The translations under genes and the position numbers were made by a program. The notes under the pieces were generated by a model. It searched no databases, had not been told where the DNA came from, and saw only the letters and a program-made list of their open reading frames with translations. Below, in pieces: positions 8,046 to 51,873 of a stretch of DNA of 64,000 nucleotides (positions within the stretch are counted from its first letter, which is position 1; each line of letters opens with the position of its first letter). Source of the DNA: Natronohydrobacter sp. (GTDB lineage Bacteria; Pseudomonadota; Alphaproteobacteria; Rhodobacterales; Rhodobacteraceae); NCBI GenBank assembly GCA_030603695.1, contig JAUVXF010000002.1, positions 124,001-188,000 on the forward strand, given 5' to 3'.

Positions 8046-8077
8046 TCATCATTTCGGCGCGCCGCGCATTTTTTCTG

Positions 8078-8106
8078 TTGCACTGCCCTGCGGGCTTTCG
8101 TAATAG
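8078..8106 (+). promoter_or_regulatory. Possible promoter of tRNA-Ala
   Basis: TTGCAC (8078-8083) is separated by 17 bases from TAATAG (8101-8106), with the tRNA starting about 33 bases later. The spacing is ideal, but each hexamer matches the sigma-70 consensus only partly. Confidence 0.35.
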
Positions 8107-8138
8107 GCAGCAACGCAGAAGAAATGACGCGGCAAAGT

Positions 8139-8214
<76 letters not shown>

Positions 8215-8370
8215 TATTCCAGCCGCTATAAGTGGTGGCGATAAAACAACAGGTTTTCCCGACAGGGTAAGGCAAGTTGCTGAGAAAATGTTATTTTCGC
8301 CGCGTGGCGCGTATAGTGGCAGTATAGATTTTCGGTAACACAGCCGGTTTCGCAGCAAGGCCAAATCTAT

Positions 8371-35666: not shown

Positions 35667-36743
35667 ATGCTGTATCGTGAAGCCGGTGATTTCAAGACAA
35701 ACTATGTCGCCGATAGCCAGACCTTTCCCATCAAATTTGATCGCTACGGCTATTACTTTCTGTTGGGCTTTGCCTTTCTGGTCATGCCGCTGATCATCAA
35801 TGACTATTGGGCCAATTCCATCGTTGTGCCCTTTCTGATCTACACCATCGCCGCGCTGGGGCTGAATATCCTGATCGGCTATTGTGGCCAGCTCTCGCTT
35901 GGGACGGGCGCATTCATGGCGGTGGGGGCCTATGCCAGTTACAAACTGATGACAGCCTTTCCCGAACTGAATATTGTCTTTGTTGTCGTTTTTGCGGGCA
36001 TTGTCACGGCGGCGGTGGGGGTGCTTTTTGGCCTGCCATCCCTTCGGATCAAGGGGTTTTATCTGGCCGTGGCCACTTTGGCCGCGCAGTTCTTCCTGAT
36101 CTGGCTGTTCACCCGGCAGCCGTGGTTTTACAACTATTCGCCCACAGGCATGATCTCTGCCCCGCAAAGAGAGCTGTTTGGCGTGGCTGTCACCGGCCCG
36201 CGCGCAAGTGCGGTGGCGATGTATATGTTCTGCCTGTGTTTTCTTGTCTCTCTGGCATGGCTGGCGCGCAATCTGACGCGCGGCACGCTGGGGCGGCAAT
36301 GGATGGCCATTCGCGACATGGATATTGCGGCAGAGATCATCGGGGTCAACCCGCTGATGGCCAAACTGACAGCCTTTGCGGTGTCTAGCTTCTTTGTGGG
36401 GATCGCAGGTGCGCTGTTGTTCACTGTCTATCTGGGCGCGGCAGAGGCAGGAGAGGCCTTCGGGATCGACAAGTCTTTCCTTGTTCTCTTCATGGTCATC
36501 ATCGGGGGGCTTGGGTCTATCTTCGGGGCATTTGCGGGCGCGGCTTTTCTGATAATCGGGCCGGTTTTGCTGAAACTCTTGCTGGTCAACACGCTGGGTT
36601 GGCCCACCGATCTGGCCGCGCATCTGGAGATCATGATCATCGGCGCCCTGATCCTTGGTTTCCTGATCCTGGAGCCGCATGGCATCGCCGCACTCTGGCG
36701 CACGATCAAGGAAAAACTACGCCTCTGGCCTTTCCCCTACTAA
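35667..36743 (+). CDS. livM: LIV-type ABC transporter permease LivM-like
   Basis: This 358-aa permease partners with LivH. It contains LGLNILIGYCGQLSLGTGAFMAVGAYASY (the segment near residue 63), RIKGFYLAVATLAAQFF near 125, and the coupling pattern RQWMAIRDMDIAAEIIGV near 210. AGAAAG sits just upstream of the ATG, four bases after the livH stop. The N-terminal 25 residues are hydrophilic and probably cytoplasmic. Confidence 0.92.
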   Translation: MLYREAGDFKTNYVADSQTFPIKFDRYGYYFLLGFAFLVMPLIINDYWANSIVVPFLIYTIAALGLNILIGYCGQLSLGTGAFMAVGAYASYKLMTAFPELNIVFVVVFAGIVTAAVGVLFGLPSLRIKGFYLAVATLAAQFFLIWLFTRQPWFYNYSPTGMISAPQRELFGVAVTGPRASAVAMYMFCLCFLVSLAWLARNLTRGTLGRQWMAIRDMDIAAEIIGVNPLMAKLTAFAVSSFFVGIAGALLFTVYLGAAEAGEAFGIDKSFLVLFMVIIGGLGSIFGAFAGAAFLIIGPVLLKLLLVNTLGWPTDLAAHLEIMIIGALILGFLILEPHGIAALWRTIKEKLRLWPFPY

Positions 36744-36804
36744 GGGGGCGGGCCGCCCTGAAAGACGAAACCAGAAATCTGTCATCCATATGGGAGGAGA
36801 ACCG

Positions 36805-38097
36805 ATGAAGATGCGCAGACTTGCCACAGCCTTTGTGGCCACAATGATCGCAGCCGCGCCAACTCTGGCCGATACGCTGCATTTCCCCTCGCTCAGCTAC
36901 CGGACGGGGCCTTTCGCGGCAGGGGGCATTCCCTTCGCCGATGGCTATTCCGATTACCTGACGCTGATCAATGAGCGCGATGGCGGCATTGGTGGCGTGC
37001 CGATCCGGCAATCGGAATGTGAAACCGCCTATAACACCGAACGCGGGGTGGAATGCTACCAATCCATCCGGGGCGATAACCCGCTGGTGCTGCAACCCTT
37101 GTCCACGGGCATTACCTACCAGCTGATCCCGCGCACCATTGAAGATGGGATTCCCATGCATACCATGGGCTATGGGCGCACATCCGCGCTTAATGGCGAA
37201 GTGTTCAACTGGACATTCAACTACCCCGCAAACTACTGGGACGGGGCCAGCGTGATCATCAATTACCTGTTGGAGGAAAATGGCGGCGCGTTGGATGGCA
37301 AGAAGATTGTGCTTCTCTACCACAACTCTGCCTATGGCCGCGAACCTATCCCCACGCTGACACGTCTGGCGGAACGCCACGGCTATGAATTGCTGACAAT
37401 CGGCGTCGATAGCCCCGGTCAGGAACAGGGCAGCCAGTGGCTGCAAATCCGGCGGGAACGGCCTGATTATGTGGTGATGTGGGGCTGGGGCGTGATGAAC
37501 CCGACAGCCATTCAGGAAGCCGCAAATATCCGCTTCCCGATGGAAAATTTCATCGGTGTATGGTGGTCAGGCTCGCAACAGGATGTGTTGCCTGTGGGCG
37601 CGGGGGCGCATGGCTACAAGGCGCTGGCCATGCATGGCACAGGCATGGATTACCCAATCTATGCTGATATGCAGCGCTATGTGATCGACACAGGCAAACA
37701 GGCAGGCACAGGCGCAGAGGTGGGCACAGTGCTGTATTCGCGCGGCATGTATGCGGCCATGCTGGCCGTAGAAGCCGCCAAGAAAGCGCAGGAAATCCAC
37801 GGTGTTGCCGCGATTACCCCGGCCATGATGCGCGACGGGATGGCCAATCTGGAAATCACCGAAGAGCTTATGGCAGAGCTTGGCTTGCCCAATTTTGGCC
37901 CGGCTTTCTCGGTGTCTTGTCAGAACCATGGCGGCTCTGGCGCTGCGATGATCCAGCAATGGGATGCCAATGCCGGCGAATGGAACCTGATTACCGACTG
38001 GATCCAGCCTGATCGCGAATTGATCATGGAAATGGCAATGGAAGACAGCCTTGCCTTTGCCGCGGAAAACAACATGACCCCGGCCTGCCTGAACTAA
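36805..38097 (+). CDS. ABC transporter periplasmic substrate-binding protein (LivJ-like)
   Basis: This 430-aa type I periplasmic binding protein has a signal peptide (residues 1-22, cut after TLA). Ligand-site features near the start include RTGPFAAGGIPFADG, which holds the usual Thr/Gly loop, and GGIGGVPI. LLYHNSAYGREPIPTLTRLAERHGYEL is near residue 165. The position after livGHM and before livF marks it as the receptor of this importer. The ligand is not readable from sequence, but adjacent acyl-CoA ligases suggest an organic acid. A strong GGGAGGAGA ribosome site and a 3' hairpin fit high expression. Confidence 0.88.
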   Translation: MKMRRLATAFVATMIAAAPTLADTLHFPSLSYRTGPFAAGGIPFADGYSDYLTLINERDGGIGGVPIRQSECETAYNTERGVECYQSIRGDNPLVLQPLSTGITYQLIPRTIEDGIPMHTMGYGRTSALNGEVFNWTFNYPANYWDGASVIINYLLEENGGALDGKKIVLLYHNSAYGREPIPTLTRLAERHGYELLTIGVDSPGQEQGSQWLQIRRERPDYVVMWGWGVMNPTAIQEAANIRFPMENFIGVWWSGSQQDVLPVGAGAHGYKALAMHGTGMDYPIYADMQRYVIDTGKQAGTGAEVGTVLYSRGMYAAMLAVEAAKKAQEIHGVAAITPAMMRDGMANLEITEELMAELGLPNFGPAFSVSCQNHGGSGAAMIQQWDANAGEWNLITDWIQPDRELIMEMAMEDSLAFAAENNMTPACLN

Positions 38098-38163: not shown

Positions 38164-38988
38164 ATGCTAGATACCAGCCCCACACAGACAACACTTCTCG
38201 AAGTCAACAATATCGAAGTGCTTTACAACCATGTGATCCTTGCTTTGAAGGGGGTTAGCCTGTCTGTGCCCAAAGGTGGGATTACGGCGCTTTTGGGTGG
38301 TAATGGTGCGGGCAAATCCACCACGCTCAAAGCCATCTCGAACCTGATCCATTCCGAACGGGGCGAGGTGACAAAGGGCACGATCCTCTATGACGGCAAG
38401 AATATGGTCGGCCTAGACCCGGCTGATCTGGTCAAGGCGGGCGTTGTGCAGGTGATGGAAGGGCGGCATTGTTTCGAGCATCTGACAGTTGAAGAAAACC
38501 TGTTGACCGGTGCTTATACCCGCACAGATGGGCGCGCCGCCACTGCCGCCGATCTGGACATGGTCTATGAATATTTCCCACGCCTGAAAGAGCGGCGCAA
38601 ATCGCAGGCGGGCTATACTTCTGGCGGCGAGCAGCAGATGACAGCCATTGGCCGCGCGCTGATGTCGCGCCCTTCCATGATCTTGCTGGATGAGCCGTCC
38701 ATGGGCCTCGCGCCTCAGCTTGTGGAACAGATTTTCGAGATTGTCTCGCGCCTGAACCGCGAACAGGGCGTGACATTCCTTCTCGCCGAACAGAATACCA
38801 ATGTGGCGCTGCGCTATGCCCATACCGGGTTCATCATGGAAAACGGGCGCATTGTGATGGAAGGCAACGCGCAGGATTTGCGCGAAAATCCCGATGTGAA
38901 GGAATTTTATCTGGGCATGTCCGACAAGGGCCGCAAGAGCTTTCGGGATGTGCGCTCTTATCGCCGCCGCAAGCGTTGGTTGGCGTGA
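38164..38988 (+). CDS. livF: LIV-type ABC transporter ATP-binding protein LivF-like
   Basis: This 274-aa ATPase has Walker A GGNGAGKST near residue 44, the LivF-like YTSGGEQQMTAIGRALMSRP signature near 154 (Y-T-S-G-G-E-Q), and Walker B ILLDEPSMGLAPQ. It pairs with LivG in a heterodimer. The C-terminal 20 residues are very basic and not part of the usual E. coli LivF. The next gene begins at the stop codon or 47 bp later, so it is co-transcribed. Confidence 0.91.
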   Translation: MLDTSPTQTTLLEVNNIEVLYNHVILALKGVSLSVPKGGITALLGGNGAGKSTTLKAISNLIHSERGEVTKGTILYDGKNMVGLDPADLVKAGVVQVMEGRHCFEHLTVEENLLTGAYTRTDGRAATAADLDMVYEYFPRLKERRKSQAGYTSGGEQQMTAIGRALMSRPSMILLDEPSMGLAPQLVEQIFEIVSRLNREQGVTFLLAEQNTNVALRYAHTGFIMENGRIVMEGNAQDLRENPDVKEFYLGMSDKGRKSFRDVRSYRRRKRWLA

Positions 38989-39035
38989 TGACGGCCCATA
39001 TCGCCCCCTCTCACCCAGTCGCAAAGAGCTTTGCC

Positions 39036-40253
39036 ATGTCCCCTTATGACACTCTGGAAACCCGCTCTCCTGATGCCCGCGCGGCCGCGCTTGCGGTGGC
39101 GTTGCCTGCTGCGATTGCCCGCGCACAGATTGCGCCGGGGCAGGCCGCATTTCTGGCGGGGGTGGATGCAGAAACGATCACCGATCGTGCGGCGCTGGCG
39201 CGGTTGCCAGTGCTGCGCAAATCCGCCCTTGTTGCCGCGCAGGCGGCACGGCCCCCTTTTGGCGGGCTAAGTGCGCGGCCCTTGGCCGCGTTTGAGCATG
39301 TCTTTCAATCCCCCGGCCCGATCTATGAGCCAGGGCGCATTGGCCAGGATTGGTGGCGTCTGGGCCGGTTTCTGCATGCCTCTGGCGTGGGGCAGGGCGA
39401 TATTGTGCAAAACTGCTTTTCCTATCATCTGGTGCCCGCTGGCATGATGTTTGAAAACGCGGCCCGCGCTGTGGGAGCCACGGTTTTGCCTGCGGGCACG
39501 GGCCAGACCGAATTGCAGGTCATGGCCGCGCGCGATATTGGCTGCACTGCTTATGCAGGCACGCCGGATTTTCTGAAAATCATTCTGGAAAAGGCCGATG
39601 AAATGGGGGTTTCCCTGTCTTTCAGCAAGGCTGTTGTCGGGGGTGGGGCACTGTTTCCCAGCTTGCGCGCCTATTATGCCGATCGCGGGATAACCTGCCG
39701 CCAATGCTATGCTACTGCCGATCTGGGCAATATCGCGCATGAAACCGATGCGATGGAGGGGATGGTGGTGGATGAAGGCGTGATTGTGGAAATCGTGCGC
39801 CCCGGCACAGGCGATCCCTTGCCAGAGGGAGAGGTGGGCGAGGTGGTTGTCACCAGCCTGAACCCCGATTATCCGCTGATCCGCTTTGCCACGGGTGATC
39901 TGAGCGCGGTTTTGCCGGGCCAAAGCCCATGTGGGCGCACCAATATGCGGATCAAGGGCTGGATGGGCCGGGCCGACCAAACCACCAAGATAAAGGGCAT
40001 GTTTGTGCGCCCCGAACAGGTGGCGGCCTTTGTTGCACGCCACGCCGAAGTGCACCGCGCGCGCGTTATTGCCACGCGATCTGGTGAAAAGGATGTGATG
40101 ACAGTGCGAATTGAAACCCGCGCCGTCAATCCGGCATTGTATGAAGAGAGTGTGCTCTCTACTCTGAAGCTGAAGGGTGAGGTCGAGCTTGTGCCACCGG
40201 GGTCTTTGCCCAATGACGGGTTGGTGATCGAGGATTTGCGCCGCTACGACTGA
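39036..40253 (+). CDS. Phenylacetate-CoA ligase-like AMP-binding enzyme (PaaK-like)
   Basis: This 405-aa protein belongs to the PaaK/CapK family of CoA ligases. It begins SPYDTLETRSPDARAAAL, the usual PaaK-family start. YHLVPAGMMFENAARAVGATVLP follows near residue 130, then CYATADLGNIAHE near 225 (adenylate-binding) and IKGWMGRADQTTKIKGMFV near 305 with the late catalytic Lys region. The classic P-loop is lacking, as expected for this family. The start at 39036 matches that pattern; a start at 38988, overlapping livF, is possible. A second ligase at the end of the LIV operon means two acids, or two steps, may be served. Confidence 0.85.
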   Translation: MSPYDTLETRSPDARAAALAVALPAAIARAQIAPGQAAFLAGVDAETITDRAALARLPVLRKSALVAAQAARPPFGGLSARPLAAFEHVFQSPGPIYEPGRIGQDWWRLGRFLHASGVGQGDIVQNCFSYHLVPAGMMFENAARAVGATVLPAGTGQTELQVMAARDIGCTAYAGTPDFLKIILEKADEMGVSLSFSKAVVGGGALFPSLRAYYADRGITCRQCYATADLGNIAHETDAMEGMVVDEGVIVEIVRPGTGDPLPEGEVGEVVVTSLNPDYPLIRFATGDLSAVLPGQSPCGRTNMRIKGWMGRADQTTKIKGMFVRPEQVAAFVARHAEVHRARVIATRSGEKDVMTVRIETRAVNPALYEESVLSTLKLKGEVELVPPGSLPNDGLVIEDLRRYD

Positions 40254-40285: not shown

Positions 40286-41929
40286 ATGCGCAATGCGATT
40301 CTGGGGGCGGTTCTTGCGATTGGGCTTGCCGGGCCACTGGCTGCCGAAAACATAGCGCTTGTGATTGGCAACCAAAGCTATGCCGCTCTGTCAGAGGCCC
40401 GCGGTGCAGGGCAGATGGCGGATGCTGTCGCCCTGTTGGAAGATATGGGCTTTACGGTAATCTCCGGTGCTGATGTGTCTGCGCCCGAGATGCGCGAAGA
40501 CCTTGCCGCCTTGCATACCCAGATTGCAGATACAGGGGCAGAGCGGGTTGTGGTCGTGCTTGCAGGGCATTTCGCGCATTCCCAAAGCGGGGCATGGCTG
40601 ATGGGCGCGCCGGCAGAGCGTTTGGGCCTTGCGCGCGCCGATGGGCAGGGTTTGCGGCTGGAACCGGTGCTGGAAATCGCGGCGCTGGCCAAAGATGCTG
40701 CCGTTATCTGGCTGGCGGAAACGCCTGTGGGGGAAAGTTATGGTCTTGGGTTGCAACCGGGCCTGCCTGAACGGCTGATGGTTCCGCAGGGCGTTGGCGT
40801 GGTGCGCGGGCAGCCCGATGCGATACTTGCGGGCATGCGCGCGCTCTTGCGCCCCGGCACGGCGCTTGCGCCTGTCGTGGATCGCAATCGCAACCTGACA
40901 GGCGAAGGCACGATTCCAGCACTGATCCCCTTCCTGCCTGCTGGCTATGCCCCCGGTGCGCGCGCTGATTTGCGCGCTTTTGCTACCGCCCAAGAGCAAG
41001 ATACCGAAGCGGCCTATCTGGCCTATCTGGACGCATTTCCCAATGGTCAGAACGCGCAAGCCGCCCGCGCGGCTTTGGAGCGGTTGCGCAACGCGCCCGA
41101 ACGCGTGGAAGAACGTCTGTTGCTAACTCGCGATGAACGCCGCGCCATTCAGCGTGATCTGACAGTTTTGGGCCATGATACCCGTGGTATTGACGGTCTT
41201 TTCGGCCCTGCCACCCGCCGCGCGATCACGCTTTGGCAGGGCCAAAGCGGCGCAGAGCAGACAGGCTATCTGACCCGCGATCAGATTTTCACCCTCGCCG
41301 CAGAGTCTGCCCGCCGCAGTGCCCAGATAGAAGCCGAAGAACGCGCCGCCCGCGAGGCGTTGGAGCGTGCGGATCGCGAGTTTTGGGCCATGACAGGCGC
41401 GGCAGGCGATGCGCCGGGATTGCGCAGCTATCTGGAACGCTACCCAAGCGGCATTTTTGCATCGCTGGCCCGTGATCGTCTGGAAACTTTGGCAGAGATT
41501 TCGCGCGCCGAAGACCGCGCGCGCGATCTGGAAGCATGGCGCCGTGCGCGTGCCGCAGATACCGACAGCGCCTATCAATCCTATATCAGGGATTTCCCGG
41601 AGGGAGAGTTTGCCCCCGCAGCGCGTGCCACTTTGGCCGCCCGCGCCCCCAGCCCCCCAGCCCCCGAAGCCGAGGAGAGCGCCGCAATTGCCGCAGCCCT
41701 TGGCGCAGAGCGCGCGCTTGGGCTAAGCCAGCCCACCCGCCTTTTGATCGAACAGCGCCTATCGCGGCTTGGCTATGATCCCGGCCCGCTGGATGGGGTA
41801 TTTGATGACCAGTCGCGCCGCGCAATCGCTCAGGCGCAACAAGCGTTTGGGTTAGATGATACCGGCTTTGTGTCGCAAGATCTGGTGACAGCACTTCTCA
41901 GCAACCTGTTGCGCGATTTCTTTGATTGA
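40286..41929 (+). CDS. Caspase-fold protein with two peptidoglycan-binding domains, no cysteine
   Basis: This 547-aa exported protein starts with a signal peptide (about residues 1-20). A caspase-like domain follows (ENIALVIGNQSYAAL, AADAVALLEDMGFTVI-type start, and VVVVLAGHFAHSQSG near 95). Then come three copies of a Y-x2-Y-x3-F/Y-P-x-G repeat (about 233-265, 370-400 and 423-455) and two PG_binding_1 domains (about 285-330 and 485-545, with DGLFGPATRRAI and DGVFDDQSRRAI). The whole protein has no cysteine, and the catalytic region reads WLAETPVG, so it cannot be an active caspase-type peptidase. It probably has a scaffolding or envelope-binding role. Confidence 0.75.
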   Translation: MRNAILGAVLAIGLAGPLAAENIALVIGNQSYAALSEARGAGQMADAVALLEDMGFTVISGADVSAPEMREDLAALHTQIADTGAERVVVVLAGHFAHSQSGAWLMGAPAERLGLARADGQGLRLEPVLEIAALAKDAAVIWLAETPVGESYGLGLQPGLPERLMVPQGVGVVRGQPDAILAGMRALLRPGTALAPVVDRNRNLTGEGTIPALIPFLPAGYAPGARADLRAFATAQEQDTEAAYLAYLDAFPNGQNAQAARAALERLRNAPERVEERLLLTRDERRAIQRDLTVLGHDTRGIDGLFGPATRRAITLWQGQSGAEQTGYLTRDQIFTLAAESARRSAQIEAEERAAREALERADREFWAMTGAAGDAPGLRSYLERYPSGIFASLARDRLETLAEISRAEDRARDLEAWRRARAADTDSAYQSYIRDFPEGEFAPAARATLAARAPSPPAPEAEESAAIAAALGAERALGLSQPTRLLIEQRLSRLGYDPGPLDGVFDDQSRRAIAQAQQAFGLDDTGFVSQDLVTALLSNLLRDFFD

Positions 41930-43183: not shown

Positions 43184-44005
43184 CTAATGCTTCGCCCCCC
43201 AACTGAGAGAGGCATGCTGGCGGGTATAGAACTCTCCCAGCAGCCCCAAAAACAATGCGACCAGTGAGAAAAGCAGCGGATACAGCGCCGATGTGTGAAT
43301 GGGGCTATAATTGATGAATGCGAAACCGCGCGCCTGATCTATGGCATGAAAAAGCGGGTTCCACATGAAATATGTCAGGTAGGATTCGGGCAGCGAATTG
43401 GCCAGAAAGAACTTGCCCGATGCAATCATGTTGATCCGGCTTATCACCTGCGTCAGCAATTTGCTGGCAGAAGGCGCCCATGGTTTTAACGCATAAAGAA
43501 TAACCCCGATTGCCACGCCTGCCAGCCACCCGGCCAACAACATGCTGAAGGCGGCGATCGGCATATACACTTCTACAGGTGTCCAGATGACATGATACAA
43601 GAACAAGATCACAACCACGGAAAGTGTCTGGATATACAGCTCTGCCAGCGCCGCGCCGCCAATGGCCACAATCGGGTTCATGGGCCTGTGTTTCATCATG
43701 GCAGATGTCGGCCCCTCTGCGGCGCTGACAGCCCCCAGCACTTTGATATGCGCCATGAACAGGAACACCCCGGTCATCAGATAGATCAACGCATCCCCGC
43801 GCACGGCAGAACCGCTCATGCCGGAGAACACGAAAATCAGCATGAACACGGCCACAAGGATCATGGTTTGCAGAATGTTCAGCAACAATCCAATGATGGC
43901 GTTGCCATGATTCTTGCGGACATCCCGCACCGCCTGATTGAAGATCAATTCGCAGGTGGTGTAGAACAAGGCGAAGGTGGAGATGCGGCGGGTCTTGCTG
44001 AACAT
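43184..44005 (-). CDS. ABC-2 type polysaccharide export permease, KpsM-like
   Basis: This 273-aa membrane protein has six predicted helices and the ABC-2 pattern of capsule and polysaccharide exporters of the KpsM/BexB group. Features include LFYTTCELIFNQAVRDVRKNHG near the start, MTGVFLFMAHIKVLGAV near 100, MNPIVAIGGAALAELYIQ near 135, and LPESYLTYFMWNPLFHAIDQAR near 215. A matching ATPase (KpsT) is not adjacent, so it must come from elsewhere in the genome. It is divergent from cysQ and lies at the edge of a glycan gene cluster. The chosen start has AAGGAA upstream, though at a long spacing. Confidence 0.85.
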   Translation of the reverse strand: MFSKTRRISTFALFYTTCELIFNQAVRDVRKNHGNAIIGLLLNILQTMILVAVFMLIFVFSGMSGSAVRGDALIYLMTGVFLFMAHIKVLGAVSAAEGPTSAMMKHRPMNPIVAIGGAALAELYIQTLSVVVILFLYHVIWTPVEVYMPIAAFSMLLAGWLAGVAIGVILYALKPWAPSASKLLTQVISRINMIASGKFFLANSLPESYLTYFMWNPLFHAIDQARGFAFINYSPIHTSALYPLLFSLVALFLGLLGEFYTRQHASLSWGAKH

Positions 44006-44135
44006 GCTTCGCGTATTCCTTGCGCCCAAGGGTTTTGCTCTGTCTGAATATGCCCTAAAGATACTGGATGACAGCTTAAGATGCAATTGTCGCGCCATAG
44101 GCAGCGCATGGCCCACAGAAAAGGACGCAAGAGCA

Positions 44136-44945
44136 ATGAGCGATCTGGATTTTGCCGCCGTGGAAAGCGTGTTGCGTCACTTGGCCTTGCAGGCCGGGGC
44201 CGCGATCATGGAGGTGTATAACCGCCCGGAAATCGCGGTGGTGCATAAGGCAGATGCCAGCCCGGTAACAGAGGCCGATAAGGCGGCGGATCGGCTGATA
44301 TGTGCCGGGCTGCAAGCGGCTTTTGCAGATATTCCGGTTGTCACCGAAGAACAGGCCGATAGCCACAGCATTTCCGCGACACGGTTTTTTATTGTTGATC
44401 CGCTGGATGGAACCAAGGAATTCATTCAGCGCCGCGGCGAGTTTACCGTCAATATTGCGCTTGTCGAAGATGGCAATCCCTTGCGCGGCATTGTCTATGC
44501 CCCCGCGCAAGCGCGGATGTTCTACACGCGCGCCGATGGCAGGGCGACCGAGGAAATTGGCCCGTTTTCCGATGCTGGCCCACAGCTGCGCCGGCCCTTG
44601 CAGATGCGCGCCCCTGATCCGGGGGGCTTGGTCATTGTGGCCTCGAAATCCCATCGTGATGCTGCGACAGAGGCGTATATTCAGCGCTACCCGGTGTCAG
44701 AATCGCGTGCGGCTGGATCATCGTTGAAATTTTGCCTGCTGGCCGCGGGCGAGGCTGATTTCTATCCCCGGCTTGGGCGCACAATGGAATGGGACACAGC
44801 CGCCGGGCAGGCCGTGTTGCAAGCCGCAGGGGGCGAGGTGTTGGATTTCCATACCCATGCCCCGTTGCGCTATGGCAAGCCGATGTTTGAAAACCCTTTT
44901 TTCCTTGCCCGTCACCCCGATGTCGCGCTTGTCGCACCCGAATAG
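44136..44945 (+). CDS. cysQ: 3'(2'),5'-bisphosphate nucleotidase
   Basis: CysQ removes the 3'-phosphate from PAP, the toxic by-product of PAPS-dependent sulfotransferases, and also acts on PAPS. The 269-aa inositol-monophosphatase-family protein has the metal-binding site VTEEQADS near residue 70, DPLDGTKEFIQR near 88-99 (a signature of CysQ rather than IMPase), and EWDTAAGQAVLQAAGG near 216. It lies divergent from the KpsM-like gene and ahead of galU. The sulfotransferase in the same cluster would make PAP, giving a clear local reason for cysQ here. Confidence 0.93.
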   Translation: MSDLDFAAVESVLRHLALQAGAAIMEVYNRPEIAVVHKADASPVTEADKAADRLICAGLQAAFADIPVVTEEQADSHSISATRFFIVDPLDGTKEFIQRRGEFTVNIALVEDGNPLRGIVYAPAQARMFYTRADGRATEEIGPFSDAGPQLRRPLQMRAPDPGGLVIVASKSHRDAATEAYIQRYPVSESRAAGSSLKFCLLAAGEADFYPRLGRTMEWDTAAGQAVLQAAGGEVLDFHTHAPLRYGKPMFENPFFLARHPDVALVAPE

Positions 44946-45029
44946 CCGAGCGCGCATTGGGGCAACAGCCTGACGAAAAGCCTGCAAAATGTCACCTTTC
45001 CTGCGCAATTCATCACAAACCCGCCGGAA

Positions 45030-45045
45030 TTAACCGGTTATTTAC
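45030..45045. promoter_or_regulatory. CtrA-like site upstream of galU
   Basis: TTAA-N7-TTTAC matches the full CtrA consensus TTAA-N7-TTAAC with one mismatch, and includes the palindrome TAACCGGTTA (45031-45040). It is 40-55 bases before the galU start. Confidence 0.35.
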
Positions 45046-45084
45046 GAATACCAAGACCAAAGTTTATTGCAGTAGGAACATGAT

Positions 45085-45978
45085 ATGACACGCAAGGTTA
45101 CCAAAGCTGTATTTCCTGTCGCTGGTATGGGCACGCGTTTTTTGCCCGCAACAAAATCTGTTCCCAAAGAGATCATGACGCTGGTTGACCGGCCCTTGAT
45201 TCAATACGCGATTGATGAAGCGCGCGAGGCGGGCATAACGGAATTCATCTTTGTTACCTCGCGCGGCAAAGGCGCGCTGGAAGATTACTTTGATCGCGCC
45301 CCGGAACTGGAAGCCTCGCTTATTGCCAAAGGCAAGACAGAGCTTTTGGCAACGCTGAACGCCACCAATATGGATAGCGGTGCCATTGCCTATGTGCGCC
45401 AGCATCAGGCGCTTGGTCTGGGCCATGCTGTGTGGTGCGCGCGTCATCTGATCGGAGATGAACCCTTTGCCGTCCTGTTGCCCGATGATGTGATCGCCGC
45501 TGACAAACCGTGCCTGAAGCAGATGGTCGAAGCCTATGCCCAGACAGGTGGCAATATGATTGCTGCGATGGAAGTGGCGCCGGACAAAGCCTCCAGCTAT
45601 GGGATAATGGATGTGCCGCCAGCGATTGGCCGCGTGCTGCCCATGCGCGGGATGGTGGAAAAACCTGCCCCCGGCACGCAGCCTTCCAATCTGGCAGCTA
45701 TTGGGCGCTATATCCTGTCGCCCGATATCATGCGCCATTTGGGCCAGATCACCCCCGGCGTGGGCGGTGAAATTCAGCTGACCGATGCCATCGCCCGCGA
45801 GATTGCCGAGAAACAAAATGTCTATGGCTTCCGCTTTGATGGGCAGCGCTATGATTGCGGATCGAAAGCGGGGTTCTTGCAAGCCACGGTGGCTTTCGGG
45901 CTAGCCCGGAGTGAACTTTGCGAGGAGTTGGGCGATTTCCTGCTGGACATGATGGCCCAGCGCAGCGCCGCACAATGA
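45085..45978 (+). CDS. galU: UTP-glucose-1-phosphate uridylyltransferase
   Basis: GalU makes UDP-glucose from UTP and glucose-1-phosphate, the sugar donor for surface glycans and trehalose. The 297-aa protein starts TKAVFPVAGMGTRFLPATKS, with the nucleotide-binding GXGTRxLPxTK loop near residue 13-24. PLIQYAIDEAREAGI follows near 39, HAVWCARHLIGDEPFAVLLPDDV near 115-137, and FDGQRYDCGSKAGFL near 253. TAGGAACATGAT leads into the start. It is followed by two glycosyltransferase genes on the same strand. Confidence 0.95.
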   Translation: MTRKVTKAVFPVAGMGTRFLPATKSVPKEIMTLVDRPLIQYAIDEAREAGITEFIFVTSRGKGALEDYFDRAPELEASLIAKGKTELLATLNATNMDSGAIAYVRQHQALGLGHAVWCARHLIGDEPFAVLLPDDVIAADKPCLKQMVEAYAQTGGNMIAAMEVAPDKASSYGIMDVPPAIGRVLPMRGMVEKPAPGTQPSNLAAIGRYILSPDIMRHLGQITPGVGGEIQLTDAIAREIAEKQNVYGFRFDGQRYDCGSKAGFLQATVAFGLARSELCEELGDFLLDMMAQRSAAQ

Positions 45979-46036
45979 GGGCGGCCCCTGCGCCTTGCGC
46001 CTGCGTGATTGGGCATTGGGCGCAGGGCGCAGAGTC

Positions 46037-47065
46037 ATGCTAGGCAGGCTTCCCCCATGGCAAGACCGCTGGTTTGCGTTTCGCATGGTGTGGAAGCGCC
46101 GCCGCTATCAGATGCGCGCCCTCGCAAAAGCGCGAGAATTGACATGTTTGCAGCGAGGGCACTGGCCGAGGGGCGCGATCTTGCTGTTTTGCACCCTACG
46201 CAACGAGGCAGAGCGCATTGACTGGTTCTTGCAGCATTATCGCGCGCTGGGGGTGGGGCATTTCATCTTTGTGGATAATGCCAGCACCGATGGCACGCGC
46301 GCGCGCCTGTTGGCGCAGCCCGATTGCACGGTTTACAGCACAGATTCCAGCTACAAGGCCGCGCGTTTCGGGATGGACTGGATCAACTGGCTGATGCTGC
46401 GCCATGCGCGCGGCCATTGGTGTGTGGTGGCGGATGCCGATGAATTGCTGATCTATCCGCATTGGCCCGACCGCCCGTTGCCCGCGCTGACAAACTGGCT
46501 GGATCGGCAGGGTCAACAGATCATGCCCGCCATGATGCTGGAACTTTATCCCAAAGGCCCGCTAGACCAGGCGCCCTGCCATGCGGGCATGAACCCGCTT
46601 TCTGCGCTGGAATGGTTTGACGCGGCCAATTACACGATCACCCACAAATCCTTGCTGGATTGCCTGCTGATCCAAGGGGGGCCGCGCGCGCGCCTGTTTT
46701 TTGCAGATACCCCAAATCGTGCACCCACACTGACAAAACTGCCACTTGTGAAATGGCGCGCGCGCAATGCCTGGGTGAACTCCACGCATAGCATCCTTCC
46801 GCGTGCCCTGAATCGGGCATTTTCAACGGATGGCGGGGAGGGGATTTCAGGCGCGTTGTTGCACACAAAATTTCTGGCCACGGTGGTCGAAAAATCGCGC
46901 ATCGAGAAGGCACGCGCCGAACATTTTGGCAATGCCCCGGTCTTTGATGCCTATTACGACCACCTCGCCCAAGCGCCTGATCTGTGGTGCATGCACTCTA
47001 CCCGCTACGAGGGGTGGGAACAGTTGGAAACGCTTGGTCTGATCTCGCGGGGCGGATGGGGCTAG
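46037..47065 (+). CDS. GT2-like glycosyltransferase, copy 1 of a tandem pair
   Basis: This 342-aa protein is of the Glyco_tranf_2_4 type found in Rhodobacterales. Motifs: LFCTLRNEAERIDWFLQHYRALG near residue 51, FIFVDNASTDGT near 74 (nucleotide-sugar site), and VVADADELLIYP near 132 (DxD-like). STHSILPRALNRAF and ALLHTKF near 240-275 follow. No signal peptide. It resembles its neighbour at 47212-48222 along its length, so they arose by duplication. The start is uncertain; a TTG at 45995 is also in frame. It sits just after galU, suggesting use of UDP-glucose or a derivative, which is inference. Confidence 0.8.
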   Translation: MLGRLPPWQDRWFAFRMVWKRRRYQMRALAKARELTCLQRGHWPRGAILLFCTLRNEAERIDWFLQHYRALGVGHFIFVDNASTDGTRARLLAQPDCTVYSTDSSYKAARFGMDWINWLMLRHARGHWCVVADADELLIYPHWPDRPLPALTNWLDRQGQQIMPAMMLELYPKGPLDQAPCHAGMNPLSALEWFDAANYTITHKSLLDCLLIQGGPRARLFFADTPNRAPTLTKLPLVKWRARNAWVNSTHSILPRALNRAFSTDGGEGISGALLHTKFLATVVEKSRIEKARAEHFGNAPVFDAYYDHLAQAPDLWCMHSTRYEGWEQLETLGLISRGGWG

Positions 47066-47211
47066 GGGATGGCGCGATCTTTGTTGCAATTCATGCCGTT
47101 GTTCGGCAAAAGAACATATAAAACAACTTAAGTTACATAAAAGCATTGCGCGAGACGTAAAGCGCTCAGGCCCTGTTGGGCCAAGGGCGCTGGGTGAGGG
47201 GCGGCAGGTTC

Positions 47212-48222
47212 ATGGGGATGCTTGGTCAGTTCCGGCTGCGCGCAGAACGGCATATGAAGCTGTTTCGCTGCTTGCGCAAAAGTGCGGCATTGCGCAAGCG
47301 GATCACGCGCACAGACAGCATTCGGCCGGGCGATGTTCTGGCCTTTGTGGTGCTGCGCAATGAACTGGTGCGGTTGCCGTATTTTCTGGAATATTACCGC
47401 GCGCAGGGCGTGCGGCATTTTCTGATGGTGGATAACGGATCAGATGATGGCACGGCGGAGTATCTGGAGCGCCAGCGCGATGTATCGCTATGGACAACGC
47501 AAGCCAGCTACAAGGGCGCAAGCTTTGGCGTCGATTGGCTGAATCATCTGCTTTGGCTGTATGGTGTCGGGCATTGGGTGCTTGTGTTGGATGTCGATGA
47601 ATTTCTGGTCTATCCGTTTTGCGACACCCGCCCGCTCTCTGCGCTGACAGACTGGCTGGATAGCCAGGGGCGGCGCTCTTTCGGGGCGATGTTGCTGGAT
47701 ATGTATCCCAAAGGCCCGATTTCGGCGCAGCCCTACCAGTCTGGCCAAAACCCGTTTGAAATAGCGCGCTTTTTCGATTCAGGCAATCTGGGGATACGGC
47801 GCAATGCCCCCTATCAGAACCTTTGGATACAAGGCGGCGTGCGCCAGCGCGTGATCATGGCCACCCAGCCCAAAGCCGCCCCAGCGCTGAATAAAATACC
47901 GCTTGTGCGTTGGCAGCGCCAATATGCCTATATCAGTTCCACCCACACGCTTTTGCCGCGCGCGCTGAACAAGGTTTATGATGATAGCGGCGGTGAATTC
48001 GCCTCTGGCGTCTTGCTGCATGCAAAGTTTCTGGACACGATTTTGGCAAAAACACGCGAAGAACTGACGCGCGCAGAGCATTATGCCGCCAGCCGCGAAT
48101 ACCAGGCCTATGCGGCCAGTCTGGCGCAGGGTCAGGATTTGTGGTGCGAATGGTCGAGCGAATACATCAACTGGCGCCAGTTGGAGATATTGGGCCTGAT
48201 GTCCAAGGGGGATTGGGCATGA
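47212..48222 (+). CDS. GT2-like glycosyltransferase, copy 2 of a tandem pair
   Basis: This 336-aa paralogue of the previous protein has the same order of motifs: FVVLRNELVRLPYFLEYYRAQG, FLMVDNGSDDGTAEYL and LVLDVDEFLVYPF. SSTHTLLPRALNKVY and LHAKFLDTI follow near the end. It begins after a 146-bp AT-richer gap containing the palindrome AACTTAAGTT (47125-47134), so it may have its own promoter. Its stop overlaps the GT14 gene start by 4 bp. Substrate is unknown. Confidence 0.8.
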   Translation: MGMLGQFRLRAERHMKLFRCLRKSAALRKRITRTDSIRPGDVLAFVVLRNELVRLPYFLEYYRAQGVRHFLMVDNGSDDGTAEYLERQRDVSLWTTQASYKGASFGVDWLNHLLWLYGVGHWVLVLDVDEFLVYPFCDTRPLSALTDWLDSQGRRSFGAMLLDMYPKGPISAQPYQSGQNPFEIARFFDSGNLGIRRNAPYQNLWIQGGVRQRVIMATQPKAAPALNKIPLVRWQRQYAYISSTHTLLPRALNKVYDDSGGEFASGVLLHAKFLDTILAKTREELTRAEHYAASREYQAYAASLAQGQDLWCEWSSEYINWRQLEILGLMSKGDWA

Positions 48223-49883
48223 GCGGGCAGGGCGCGCCTTTGGGCATCATCATGTTGTGCCATACGGCCTTGCACCGTGCGGCGCAGGTGGCGCGGTTCT
48301 GGCTGGATGCAGGATGTCCGGTTGTCATCCATCTGGATCGCGCGGTCTCTCATGCGGATAGGGATGCAATGCGCGCCGCACTTGGCGCGCATCCGCTTGT
48401 GCGTTTCAGCCCGCGCCATCGCTGTGCCTGGGGGTCTTGGCAGTTGGTTGCCGCCACGCAAGATGCCGCCGAACTGATGCTGCGCGATTTTCCTCAGACC
48501 GGGCATGTGATGCTGATATCGGGGGCCTGTCTGCCTCTGCGCCCGGCGTCAGAATTGCAAGCCCATCTTGCCGCCCATCCGCAGACGGATTTTATCGAAT
48601 CCGTCGCGATTGAACATGCGGAATGGATTACAGGCGGCTTGTCCGAAGAGCGCTTTACCCTTTATTTTCCATTCAACTGGCACAAACAGCGCTTGGCTTT
48701 TGATACATTTGTGGATGTTCAGCGCAAGCTGGGTATCCGGCGCGAGATCCCGCGTCCCTTGCGCCCGCATATGGGATCGCAATGGTGGTGCCTGACGCGC
48801 AAAACCTTGTCGGCCATTCTGACAGACCCAAGGCGCAAGCGCTATGATCGCTATTTCCGCCAAAACTGGATACCGGACGAATCCTATTTCCAGACCCTTG
48901 CACGGGTGCATGCGGCCCAGATTGACAGCCGTTCCCTGACGCTGGTCAAGTTTGATCGCAATGGCAGGCCAAACCTGTTTTACGATGATCATCTGCAACT
49001 CTTGCGCCGCTCTGATTGTTTTGTGGCGCGCAAGATATGGCCAGAGGCCAACAGGCTCTATGATTTCTTTCTGTCAGATCAACTGGCCAGACAGCCCCGC
49101 TTGCCTGCCGAGCCTGCCAAGATTGACCGCTATTTTGAATTGGCCGAACAGCAACGGCGCGAGGGGCGGGCGGGGCTGTATATGCAAAGCCGCTTTCCCG
49201 CCCATGACAGCGCTGCTGCCAAAACAGCCGGGCCATATTCGGTTTTCAGCGGCTTTGATCATCTGTTTGAAAATTTTGAACATTGGCTTGGGCAGGTAAG
49301 TGGCGCGCGCGCGCATGGCCATCTCTTTGCGTCTGAGCGCGTGCAGTTTCATGGGGGCGCGCGCGTCTGGCATGGGGCAATCAGCGATTCCGCCGCCATA
49401 CGCGACTACAATCCGCGCATGTTTCTGACCAATCTGTTATGGGCGGCACGCGGAGAGCGGCAATGCTTCGCCTATGGCCCCGAAGATATGATGGATCACG
49501 AAGTCAACTGGTTCATGGCCACCGATACCAATGCAGAGATACAGGTCATTCGGGGCGCGTGGATATTGCCGCTCTGGCGGCGCGGTGTGGTGTCGGATGC
49601 CGTGGTGGCCGAGGTTGCGCGCCTGCAAAAGCGCGAACAACTTTGGCTGGAGGTGCTGGAATCGCGTTGGGTATTGGCAAAATGCAAGATTTGGACAGTT
49701 TCTGAAATCTGTGCCGCACCGGAACAATGCCTTGCTATGGCGGTGCAAGACAGCGCCAATGCCGCAGCGCTGACGGCCCATGGGCTGGCCCAATTATACC
49801 GGCTGGAGGGGTTGCCAGAATTCCTGACCGCGTTGCGAAATCAGGGGCTTCCGCCGCAAAACTTCAAAGATTTCAATTTTTAA
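48219..49883 (+). CDS. GT14-type glycosyltransferase with DUF5928 domain
   Basis: This 554-aa protein begins with a Branch (GT14, beta-1,6-N-acetylglucosaminyltransferase-like) domain of about 300 residues. LGIIMLCHTALHRAAQVARF is at the start, VVIHLDRAVSHADRDAM near 33, and WGSWQLVAATQDAAELML near 67. LISGACLPLRP near 95 and MGSQWWCLTRKTLSAIL near 187 follow. Its C-terminal half (about 310-554) resembles DUF5928, seen in Rhodobacterales. It overlaps the second GT2 gene by 4 bp. A branching sugar transferase acting on an exopolysaccharide or glycoprotein is plausible, but the acceptor is unknown. Confidence 0.8.
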   Translation: MSGQGAPLGIIMLCHTALHRAAQVARFWLDAGCPVVIHLDRAVSHADRDAMRAALGAHPLVRFSPRHRCAWGSWQLVAATQDAAELMLRDFPQTGHVMLISGACLPLRPASELQAHLAAHPQTDFIESVAIEHAEWITGGLSEERFTLYFPFNWHKQRLAFDTFVDVQRKLGIRREIPRPLRPHMGSQWWCLTRKTLSAILTDPRRKRYDRYFRQNWIPDESYFQTLARVHAAQIDSRSLTLVKFDRNGRPNLFYDDHLQLLRRSDCFVARKIWPEANRLYDFFLSDQLARQPRLPAEPAKIDRYFELAEQQRREGRAGLYMQSRFPAHDSAAAKTAGPYSVFSGFDHLFENFEHWLGQVSGARAHGHLFASERVQFHGGARVWHGAISDSAAIRDYNPRMFLTNLLWAARGERQCFAYGPEDMMDHEVNWFMATDTNAEIQVIRGAWILPLWRRGVVSDAVVAEVARLQKREQLWLEVLESRWVLAKCKIWTVSEICAAPEQCLAMAVQDSANAAALTAHGLAQLYRLEGLPEFLTALRNQGLPPQNFKDFNF

Positions 49884-49908
49884 AAGATCAAAGTTCACAG
49901 ATAAGATT

Positions 49909-51339
49909 ATGTCACACCCTCCCAGATTTCAGTATTTTGTCATTCTTGCAGATATGCGCACCGGGTCTAACCTGCTGGAAGCTTGTTTGAACAGCTTTGC
50001 AGGCGTGGCCTGTCTGGGAGAAGTGTTTAATCCCCATTTCATCGGCCAACCCAAGACCGAGACTGTTTTGGGCTTTGACAAAGCGGCCCGCGATGCCGAT
50101 CCCGCAGCCGTGGTGGCACGCTTTGCCCAAAACCCCACTCTTGCCGGGTTTCGCTTCTTCCATGATCACGATCCGCGCGCATTGGCGCAGTTCCTGCCCG
50201 ATCCGGCCTGTGCGAAAATCATTCTCACCCGCAACCCGCTGGATAGCTATATCTCGCTCAAGATTGCGCGGCAAACCCATCAATGGCGGCTGGGGGATGT
50301 AAGCCAGCGCAAGGGCGCGCAGATTGTCTTTGATCCAGCCGAATTTCAGGCCCATGTCGCAACACTGCAAGAGTTTCAACTTCAGGTGCAAGCAGGGTTG
50401 CAGCGCAGTGGGCAAACTGCATTTTACTTGTCTTATGAAGATATTACAGAATTGGATGTCCTGAATGGCCTTGCTGCGTGGCTGGGTCTGACGGACAGGA
50501 TAAAAGAGCTTCCGAAAAAGCTGAAACGCCAAAACCCGGAACCTTTGGGCGAAAAACTGATCAACCCCGAAGCTTTGGCAGACGGTGTGGCGCGCTTGGA
50601 TCGGTTCAATCTGGCGCGCAGCCCCAGTTTCGAGCCGCGTCACCCGCCTGTGCTCTGGGCCTATCGGGCCTGCCGCAGCCAGCCGCTTGTTTACGCCCCT
50701 GTGCCGGGATGCCGTGAAGATGCCATATTGGAATGGATGGCACGGATTGACGGCGTGGGGGTGCAAGATTTGTTGGCGGATTTCACCCCTGCTATGTGGC
50801 AAGACTGGCAACGCGCAACGCCCCGGCGCGTGGCTTTCAGCGTGTTGCGCCATCCGGTGTGGCGCGCGCATGAATGCTTTGTGGATCAGGTGCTTTTGGG
50901 CAAGCGCGAGAATGTTCGCGCCTTTATCCAGCAGGTGACAGGGCAGGAATTGCCACGCCGCGCCGATGATTTGGCACATTGGGCTTCAGCACAGCATCAC
51001 GCCGCATTTATGGCCTATCTGGGGTTTGTCAAAGCCAATCTGAACGGGCAGACAGCGCTGCCCATTCGGCCGGTCTGGGCCAGCCAATCACGCCTGATAG
51101 AGGCGATCTCTGCGCAATGCCCGCTGCACCGCCTGATCCGGGAAGAGCATTTGCAAGATGAATTGCCGCAAATCGCGGTTGGCCTTGGTCAGGCGCTGCC
51201 GCCCTTCAGGCCAACACAGCGCAAGCCTGCGCTTGATTTGGCTGAAATCTATGATGCGCGCATAGAAGGCGCTGCGCAGGCCGCCTACGGCCATGATTAC
51301 GCCCTGCTTGCATTCGGGCCGTGGCGCAGCGCGGCATAA
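49909..51339 (+). CDS. Two-part sulfotransferase (NodH-like), second half degenerate
   Basis: This 476-aa protein begins with a sulfotransferase domain: 5'-phosphosulfate loop ILADMRTGSNLLEACLNSF (residues 11-30) and 3'-phosphate loop KIILTRNPLDSYISLKIARQ near residue 104-123. It is similar to the NodH/Stf0 type. A second half (about 255-470) repeats the layout weakly: VYAPVPGCREDAILEWM near 263 stands where the first loop would be, and RRVAFSVLRHPVWRAHECF near 307 resembles the 3'-loop. The second 5'-loop lacks the usual Lys/Arg-Thr-Gly pattern. This suggests a duplication in which one half has lost PAPS binding. It follows the GT14 gene by 25 bp. Confidence 0.8.
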   Translation: MSHPPRFQYFVILADMRTGSNLLEACLNSFAGVACLGEVFNPHFIGQPKTETVLGFDKAARDADPAAVVARFAQNPTLAGFRFFHDHDPRALAQFLPDPACAKIILTRNPLDSYISLKIARQTHQWRLGDVSQRKGAQIVFDPAEFQAHVATLQEFQLQVQAGLQRSGQTAFYLSYEDITELDVLNGLAAWLGLTDRIKELPKKLKRQNPEPLGEKLINPEALADGVARLDRFNLARSPSFEPRHPPVLWAYRACRSQPLVYAPVPGCREDAILEWMARIDGVGVQDLLADFTPAMWQDWQRATPRRVAFSVLRHPVWRAHECFVDQVLLGKRENVRAFIQQVTGQELPRRADDLAHWASAQHHAAFMAYLGFVKANLNGQTALPIRPVWASQSRLIEAISAQCPLHRLIREEHLQDELPQIAVGLGQALPPFRPTQRKPALDLAEIYDARIEGAAQAAYGHDYALLAFGPWRSAA

Positions 51340-51348
51340 ACCGCGCGC

Positions 51349-51813
51349 TCAGGCCGCTTTGCTGGATTCGGTGCTGCTCAGGATCGCAAAAATCTTCGCT
51401 GGATCTTCGTTCGCGCGCAGCTTTTCGCAGATTTGCGGGTTGCGCAATGTGCGAGAGATGAAGGCCAGCGCTTTCAGATGCTCTACCCCGGCTTCGCGCG
51501 GGGCAAACAGGGCAAAGACCAGATCAACTGGCGCTTTATCGACAGAGCCGTAATCAAGCGGCTTTTCCAGCCGGAAAAACACCCCAAGCACTTGGTCGAT
51601 CATGTCCAGCCGCGCATGGGGCACGGCAACGCCATGTCCAACGCCTGTCGGGCCAAGGGTTTCACGTTCTTGCAGCGCGCCGATAACCGTTTCCGTATCC
51701 AATCCATACACGCTTTGGGCCACTTCCGCGATACTTTGAAACAGACGCTTCTTAGATGTTGCTGCGCCGATAAAGCGTACAGCCTTCGGATTCAGAAGCG
51801 TTGTCATATCCAT
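51349..51813 (-). CDS. ptsN: Nitrogen PTS IIA component
   Basis: PtsN (EIIA-Ntr) is a phosphoacceptor of the nitrogen PTS that affects potassium, nitrogen and stress responses. The 154-aa protein has the PTS EIIA type-2 fold. The phospho-His is in GHGVAVPHARLDMIDQ near residue 66. It has a typical length and start (MDMTTLLNPKAVRF), with GGAG upstream. It follows hpf after a long hairpin, so the two may be differentially expressed. Confidence 0.93.
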   Translation of the reverse strand: MDMTTLLNPKAVRFIGAATSKKRLFQSIAEVAQSVYGLDTETVIGALQERETLGPTGVGHGVAVPHARLDMIDQVLGVFFRLEKPLDYGSVDKAPVDLVFALFAPREAGVEHLKALAFISRTLRNPQICEKLRANEDPAKIFAILSSTESSKAA

Positions 51814-51845
51814 TATCGGGAATCTCCAGATGTATGATACAGGAA

Positions 51846-51873
51846 CCACCCTCAGGGCCGCGCCTGAGGGTGG
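51846..51873 (-). terminator. Perfect 11-bp hairpin between hpf and ptsN
   Basis: CCACCCTCAGG and CCTGAGGGTGG form a perfect 11-bp stem with a 6-base loop. On the minus strand no T-run follows, and ptsN starts about 33 bases later. It may attenuate read-through into ptsN or stabilise hpf mRNA. Confidence 0.55.

Follow-up and report, generated by a model that had tools for sequence, protein, structure and literature searches.

What does an 8-kb group of genes that places a capsule exporter permease beside glycosyltransferases and a sulfotransferase make, and how widely is it shared? The locus lies at positions 43184 to 51339 of a 64,000-nucleotide stretch, hereafter the window, of a Natronohydrobacter sp. 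genome (assembly GCA_030603695.1, contig JAUVXF010000002.1, positions 124,001 to 188,000 of the forward strand). An earlier note, made from the letters of the window alone, had read it as a candidate locus for assembly and export of a sulfated glycan. We consider it probable that the locus belongs to a Kps-type, or ATP-binding cassette (ABC) transporter-dependent, capsule system with a sulfotransferase that uses 3'-phosphoadenosine 5'-phosphosulfate (PAPS), and that this system is common to most members of the family Rhodobacteraceae. The gene families, their co-occurrence and their joint loss all support a role in assembly and export of a surface polysaccharide that is probably sulfated. Rhodobacteraceae count among the bacteria commonly met in the sea and in salt water, and the results suggest an old cell coat shared by the family.

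Family-wide retention and joint loss of the locus

The distribution of the key genes was examined in a sample of 149 genomes (G numbers below) from the order, filtered at 95% completeness; every one belongs to a single family, Rhodobacteraceae, and together they represent 72 genera. A full-length sulfotransferase (503 bits or more) was found in 142 of them. None was found in G119, G134, G144, G153, G169 and G199, and G118 has only a distant match to the C-terminal half elsewhere in its genome. DUF5927, the C-terminal domain of the glycosyltransferase family 14 (GT14) protein of the locus, was detected in 143 genomes, with partial matches in G176 and G198; G134 has a 52-position remnant, and G119, G144, G153, G169 and G199 have none. 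The genes for the sulfotransferase and the GT14-DUF5927 protein are adjacent and on the same strand in 142/142 genomes. The chance that the six genomes lacking DUF5927 would all fall among the seven lacking the sulfotransferase is 5e-10 by simple counting, uncorrected for phylogeny.

The same genomes have lost the exporter permease. Orthologous KpsM was sought in 15 chosen genomes. Nine of these, G118 among them, have it (296 bits or more); in the other six it is absent or scores no higher than 38.3 bits, and those six are precisely the genomes that lack the sulfotransferase together with an intact gene for DUF5927 (6/6). PF05159, the family of KpsC and KpsS, had no match in G144 and G153 and one weak match each in G119 and G134, while G169 and G199 carry the two best PF05159 scores of the whole set, of an outlying type. 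The six capsule-less genomes represent six genera, and their genus mates keep everything where sampled (3/3 in g61 and 3/3 in g48).

What remains at the site varies. In G153, kpsM and the genes for the glycosyltransferases, the GT14 protein and the sulfotransferase are gone, with cysQ, kdsB, galU and the ptsN-hpf-lptB flank retained. The corresponding stretch keeps cysQ, kdsB, galU, galE and a fragment of a glycosyltransferase family 2 (GT2) gene in G134, cysQ and galU in G119, cysQ, kdsB, galU and a gt4 relative in G169, and cysQ, kdsB and galE in G199; cysQ alone was found in the stretch taken from G144. G118 carries kpsM, cysQ, kdsB, GT2, galU, galE, GT4, GT2 and GT14 genes followed by ptsN, and the sulfotransferase alone is missing, as expected for a late decoration step.

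Two further observations concern these sites. The G134 locus (L148) holds capsule locus remnants at ~7990-9190, where a GT2 fragment of ~72 residues accompanies the 52-position DUF5927 piece. Different kps genes, KpsE/T/S-like in the G199 locus (L155) and KpsS-like in that of G169 (L154), hint at a replacement of the ancestral capsule.

Gene order and inheritance

Gene order was compared in loci of sulfotransferase relatives, of which the best 80 of 389 were kept, a choice biased to close relatives; the closest named ones include Roseinatronobacter, Natronohydrobacter and Roseibaca, at 82 to 53% identity. The GT14 gene is directly upstream of the sulfotransferase gene in all of the 80. Among the 60 loci of at least 20 kb, kpsM was found in 56, cysQ in 52, galU in 51 and a divergent kpsM/cysQ pair in 52, and the sulfotransferase gene and ptsN are convergent within 400 bases in 41. 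The short overlap between the second GT2 gene (gtB) and the GT14 gene, 4 bases in the window, recurs in 65 of the 79 loci carrying both. Since the genes are kept together across the family, the arrangement is more than chance. The earlier note had proposed conservation of gene order in relatives as the check on its reading, naming loss of synteny between cysQ/galU and the transferases as evidence against it. That order is largely conserved: the best cysQ lies upstream of the sulfotransferase gene, on the same strand and at most 20 kb away, in 135 of 142 genomes (seven differ), and the count of galU given above points the same way.

The interior of the locus is more variable. The galU-GT2-GT2 order of the window was seen in 15 of the 19 tallied loci of L021-L053 and in 10 of the 60 of L054-L133, two sets that probably share some contigs, so that tallies across both (such as the 110 proteins below) count some twice. 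Other loci have kdsB, another GT2 gene, galE and a GT4 gene in varying sets between cysQ and the last GT2 gene. The two paralogous GT2 enzymes of the earlier description are therefore present here but represent one arrangement among several, with a GT4 and a further GT2 gene instead in 35/60 tallied L054-L133 loci.

Among 60 relatives surveyed more broadly, DUF5927 was found in 34, namely the host genome and 33 of 35 genomes of its genus, and in none of 24 genomes of other families of the class; the two genus mates scored negative are both incomplete (79 and 71%). Pairwise identities were compared, without a tree and with a bias to near relatives, in the 45 of 80 loci in which all nine genes are complete. 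Mantel correlations with the identities of hpf, lptB and an rnd-like gene were 0.74 for kpsM, 0.69 for the second GT2 gene, 0.73 for the GT14 gene and 0.76 for the sulfotransferase gene, and the largest r in 999 permutations was 0.27 to 0.49. The capsule genes thus track the flank genes, which is the pattern of vertical descent, unlike a strain-variable capsule locus. Near-universal and apparently vertical inheritance in the family is, on these sequence comparisons, a new aspect of this system.

Kps proteins encoded elsewhere in the genome

The host genome comprises 2.95 Mb in 40 contigs, with the window on contig 33, and a search of it for KpsM returned the window KpsM as the sole match. The locus is not a self-contained unit, as the earlier description had implied, because the other Kps proteins are encoded on other contigs. 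Contig 7 encodes KpsE (TIGR01010, 1.2e-53 to 3.6e-53) beside a VexC-like KpsT (VexC 3.2e-24, ABC_tran 1.8e-16), and contig 36 encodes KpsS, a VexA-like KpsD (VexA 3.1e-36, with PF02563) and KpsC side by side. KpsS matches NF050054 at 1e-64, under the cut-off, and PF05159 is above its cut-off in both KpsS and KpsC. Judged by these matches, the host genome holds a complete predicted Kps set: exporter, export channel proteins and transferases for 3-deoxy-D-manno-octulosonic acid (Kdo). The only match to adenosine 5'-phosphosulfate (APS) kinase is on contig 1; hence the gene for PAPS synthesis lies outside the locus as well. A second polysaccharide exporter was noticed on contig 26 of G000 (L143, ~29-34 kb), where a Poly_export protein is encoded beside a protein of 751 aa that matches the KpsE type weakly.

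Architecture of the sulfotransferase and the GT14-DUF5927 protein

The sulfotransferase was examined by profile searches and structure prediction. Its Pfam match is weak (PF13469, E 0.001, under the cut-off), and its match to PDB entry 9vki, titled LPS sulfotransferase NodH (LPS, lipopolysaccharide), is at 1.6e-9. The predicted structure (mean predicted local distance difference test score, pLDDT, 89.6; predicted template modelling score, pTM, 0.63) consists of two halves linked by residues 233-243, which are modelled with low confidence. The three best solved fold matches are all sulfotransferases (3rnl, Stf0 1tex and 4gbm; E 4.5e-5 to 4.7e-4), with modest TM-scores, perhaps an effect of the two domains in the query.

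The N-terminal half carries MRTGSN in 110/110 proteins and TRNxxxSYxS in 104/110. Its residues M16-N21, T107-R108-N109, S113 and S116, which we take to form the 5' and 3' PAPS motifs, are invariant in 55/55 aligned relatives. The C-terminal half differs. Matches to PF03567, Sulfotransfer_2, at E up to 1 were obtained for 37 of 48 C-terminal halves (best 5.6e-9), with none for that of the window, and at E up to 0.01 for 42 of 55 whole proteins. In the 55 relatives the 5' loop of this half has the consensus P-x-x-[GS]-G-P, in which the first P alone is invariant, and a histidine stands in 55/55 where a 3' serine would presumably be expected. As loop and serine have apparently been replaced, we take the C-terminal half to be probably non-catalytic; perhaps it binds the acceptor. 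Profile comparison detected no likeness between the two halves (4% probability), and the profile of the C-terminal half matched none of the solved chains up to E 10. By sequence and predicted structure, then, the sulfotransferase is a tandem in which an Stf0/NodH-like half, its PAPS motifs intact, precedes a degenerate half that is probably related to Sulfotransfer_2.

The GT14 half of its neighbour matches human XYLT1 by profile (3.3e-6) and, in Foldseek, both XYLT1 (9.8e-15) and C2GnT, and is predicted to be xylosyltransferase/Core-2-like. The motif W[IV]PDESYF is present in 100/110 GT14 proteins. The second domain had been labelled DUF5928; this is wrong, as the domain is DUF5927 (PF19349, 5.9e-99). 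DUF5928 itself had no match in the host genome, in a search that was silent in every control genome and so had no positive control. Searches with DUF5927 gave no match to solved chains up to E 10; in Pfam, the 42 members searched gave DUF5927 itself, with any stray family in no more than 2 of them. By eye only, helices and strands follow one another in DUF5927 much as they do in the sulfotransferase. A sulfotransferase fold for DUF5927 was rejected except as an element of the combined proposal below: comparison of the profiles gave no significant result (1.2% probability), and the 50 Foldseek matches listed for the whole GT14-DUF5927 protein were mostly glycosyltransferases, with lysyl hydroxylase LH3 and ADP-glucose pyrophosphorylase also among them and no sulfotransferase. 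It is doubtful that one combined proposal holds in all its parts, namely one ancestral sulfated capsule inherited vertically by nearly the whole family at a fixed chromosomal place, DUF5927 as a degenerate sulfotransferase fold, a tandem of one live and one dead sulfotransferase, and physical coupling of sugar addition and sulfation.

CysQ, GalU and PAPS turnover

CysQ had been assigned the task of clearing the by-product 3'-phosphoadenosine 5'-phosphate (PAP) for this pathway. A dedicated PAP scavenger is not borne out, because cysQ is retained in 149/149 genomes, including all seven without a full sulfotransferase. APS kinase was found in 148/149, which makes PAPS synthesis uninformative as a co-lost marker; the exception, G097, has the sulfotransferase. 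In these genomes both the removal of PAP and the supply of PAPS seem to be general functions. As proposed pathway steps, cysQ and galU are conserved neighbours of the locus but not dedicated parts, galU surviving in four of the six stretches without capsule genes.

Proposed pathway and alternatives

We propose the following sequence of events. KpsS and KpsC, encoded elsewhere in the genome, would build a Kdo linker on a lipid in the cytoplasm, and the GT2 and GT14-DUF5927 enzymes would add sugars donated by UDP-glucose or other nucleotide sugars. With its N-terminal half, the two-domain sulfotransferase may transfer sulfate from PAPS to the glycan, either during its growth or once it is finished. 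KpsM with KpsT would export the chain, and KpsE and KpsD would carry it to the surface. CysQ would remove PAP here as elsewhere in the cell.

Several points weigh against this proposal. The joint loss is that of six genomes, uncorrected for phylogeny, and all 149 genomes are of one family. All the Kps proteins, KpsM included, fall well short of the NCBIfam equivalog cut-offs and so count as relatives of the described proteins but not as close members. kdsB is present in 29 of the 60 tallied L054-L133 loci and in none of the 19 of the window's genus, yet it is kept in four of the six capsule-less stretches; being absent from the genus loci and surviving capsule loss, it is no capsule marker. 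Neither cysQ nor APS kinase is co-lost, and G097 combines the sulfotransferase with no APS kinase match, so that the genes of PAPS turnover lend the proposal no support. Sulfate on the exported glycan is what we infer, as are the polymer, the linker, the acceptor sugar and the order of the steps. Finally, the closest solved relative of the sulfotransferase is named an LPS sulfotransferase, and an lptB-like and an LptA-like gene flank the locus, which makes LPS a conceivable acceptor. The GT2 and GT14 enzymes would then build part of the LPS core or O-chain, the NodH-like enzyme would sulfate LPS, and the adjacency of KpsM would be historical. We regard this as unlikely, since orthologous KpsM is gone along with the sulfotransferase and the GT14-DUF5927 gene in all six genomes concerned, four of which have no or one weak KpsC/S match, and since the ptsN-hpf-lptB flank persists in G153.

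A capsule system as proposed could also serve a different sulfate acceptor, a lipid or small glycolipid in place of the polymer. The structure of Stf0 (1tex), one of the three best fold matches, includes the small sugar trehalose, which the enzyme reportedly sulfates. We consider such an acceptor very unlikely, given the linkage of the sulfotransferase to KpsM and the glycosyltransferases and the probable resemblance of its C-terminal half to Sulfotransfer_2, a family that includes carbohydrate sulfotransferases. In favour of a lipid, roseobacters make a sulfur-containing aminolipid, described with its early steps unknown (PMC8319176, in excerpt). That pathway was set aside as a candidate: its known gene, salA, encodes an acyltransferase, and the word sulfotransferase is nowhere in the text of the paper (PMC8319176). 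It is scarcely credible, lastly, that the capsule is real but unsulfated and the sulfotransferase-like protein a non-catalytic partner of the GT14 enzyme; the C-terminal half does lack a normal PAPS loop and G118 does keep the remaining locus without this protein, but the presumed PAPS residues of the N-terminal half are invariant in every one of the 55 relatives. A sulfated Kps-type capsule thus remains the reading that we favour.

If most of the family wear one shared sulfated coat, this bears on attachment to algae, on adsorption of phages and gene-transfer agents (GTA) and on marine sulfated carbon. The six genomes without the capsule unit and the one without the sulfotransferase alone form a natural test set. 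DUF5927, a domain of unknown function, would gain a pathway, and the two-part sulfotransferase is open to enzymology.

Relation to described systems

The author of the earlier note knew of no described pathway with this exact gene set. Related capsule clusters that combine kps genes and a sulfotransferase with cysQ have been published, in Cobetia, though no GT14-DUF5927 protein was seen in the excerpted account (PMC11766843). The cluster of Cobetia marina KMM 1449 shares kpsETMD, kpsSC, cysQ, glycosyltransferases and a sulfotransferase with the present system, and its polymer was shown to carry sulfate; it differs, as far as that account goes, in being gammaproteobacterial, in its ~70 genes, in its own cysN/C and cysD and in its rhamnose and mannose pathways (PMC11766843). 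Here the kps parts lie on three contigs, APS kinase is encoded outside the locus, and the GT14-DUF5927 protein and tandem sulfotransferase are distinctive. Vibrio sp. KMM 8419 likewise has an ABC-exported sulfated capsule, kps genes in several cluster regions and GT2 enzymes, and differs in its own cysNDC copies and its rhamnose and glucose pathways; a strain of the same species has a completely different cluster, in contrast to the family-wide conservation here (PMC11641403, in excerpt). Relative to the Cobetia and Vibrio clusters, the novelty lies in how nearly universal and how stable this locus is across the family, and in its protein architectures.

Among related bacteria, the GTA-receptor capsule of Rhodobacter capsulatus (rcc01081-rcc01086) is likewise a surface polysaccharide; it was set aside by its description, the excerpted text naming other genes and a Wza-type exporter (wzc, wzb, wza) (PMC10218006). 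The exopolysaccharide of Salipiger mucosus contains 0.9% sulfate (PMC2953402, in excerpt). Other Salipiger species carry the locus, and the S. mucosus polymer may stem from other genes. A search of open-access literature, with subscription papers outside its coverage, recognised no paper on this locus and found DUF5927 in none.

KpsM, KpsT, KpsD and KpsE also match the models of VexB, VexC, VexA and VexD of the Vi exporter, all far under the equivalog cut-offs; we know of no sulfotransferase in the Vi system. Of the individual proteins, the N-terminal half of the sulfotransferase shares fold and PAPS motifs with Stf0/NodH enzymes (1tex, 9vki) and is here fused to the degenerate, probably Sulfotransfer_2-like half. 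The GT-A half of the GT14 protein is like that of peptide O-xylosyltransferase 1 and Core-2 GlcNAc-transferase, here in a bacterial protein with a C-terminal DUF5927.

Genes of the locus and its flank

All seven genes that the earlier note named were confirmed as open reading frames, each with family support (Table 1). For KpsM this support is weak but specific, with the VexB and KpsM scores both far under the equivalog cut-offs and no Pfam match. PF13704 E-values of the two GT2 proteins are 7.6e-32 and 2.6e-32. Counts of D-x-D motifs in the GT2 proteins of relatives (45 and 53, then 72 and 73, of 109) came from overly narrow patterns and are disregarded. Three genes, kpsM, cysQ and that of the GT14 protein, had been listed with starts that made them too long; by reading of the sequence these were trimmed to 44005, 44136 and 48219. 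With these starts, kpsM and cysQ lie on opposite strands with a 130-base gap. The six plus-strand genes are closely spaced, the stop of gtB overlapping the start of the GT14 gene. A scan for promoters and terminators gave a result at chance level.

Table 1. Coordinates and assignments of the locus genes and of the right-hand boundary gene (window positions).
Feature	Position	Strand	Assignment
kpsM	43184..44005	-	Capsule ABC exporter inner-membrane permease, 273 aa, divergent from cysQ; NCBIfam VexB 2e-14, KpsM 2.4e-12
cysQ	44136..44945	+	3'(2'),5'-bisphosphate nucleotidase; TIGR01331 4.7e-80, over cut-off
galU	45085..45978	+	UTP-glucose-1-phosphate uridylyltransferase; TIGR01099 1.3e-97, 326.4 bits against a cut-off of 326.8 (just under)
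gtA	45995..47065	+	GT2 glycosyltransferase, PF13704, DADE motif; start codon uncertain
gtB	47176..48222	+	GT2 glycosyltransferase, PF13704, DVDE motif; start codon uncertain
GT14-DUF5927 gene	48219..49883	+	PF02485 Branch 2.8e-19; C-terminal PF19349 DUF5927 5.9e-99, from ~49029
Sulfotransferase, N-terminal half	49909..50604	+	Residues 1-232; Stf0/NodH-like; PAPS motifs MRTGSN, TRNPLDSYIS
Sulfotransferase, C-terminal half	50656..51336	+	Residues 250-476; Sulfotransfer_2-like in relatives; degenerate 5' PAPS loop
ptsN	51349..51849	-	Conserved right-hand boundary, followed by hpf and lptB; outside the pathway

To the left of the locus, the gene at 40286-41929 (+) encodes a 547-aa protein with a weak caspase-like start (Peptidase_C14, 1e-4) and two peptidoglycan-binding repeats. 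Further left, a short AMP-binding-enzyme protein is encoded at 38976-40253 (+), downstream of a periplasmic binding protein at 36679-38097, and between these two genes the stretch 38164-38988 reads like an ABC ATPase.

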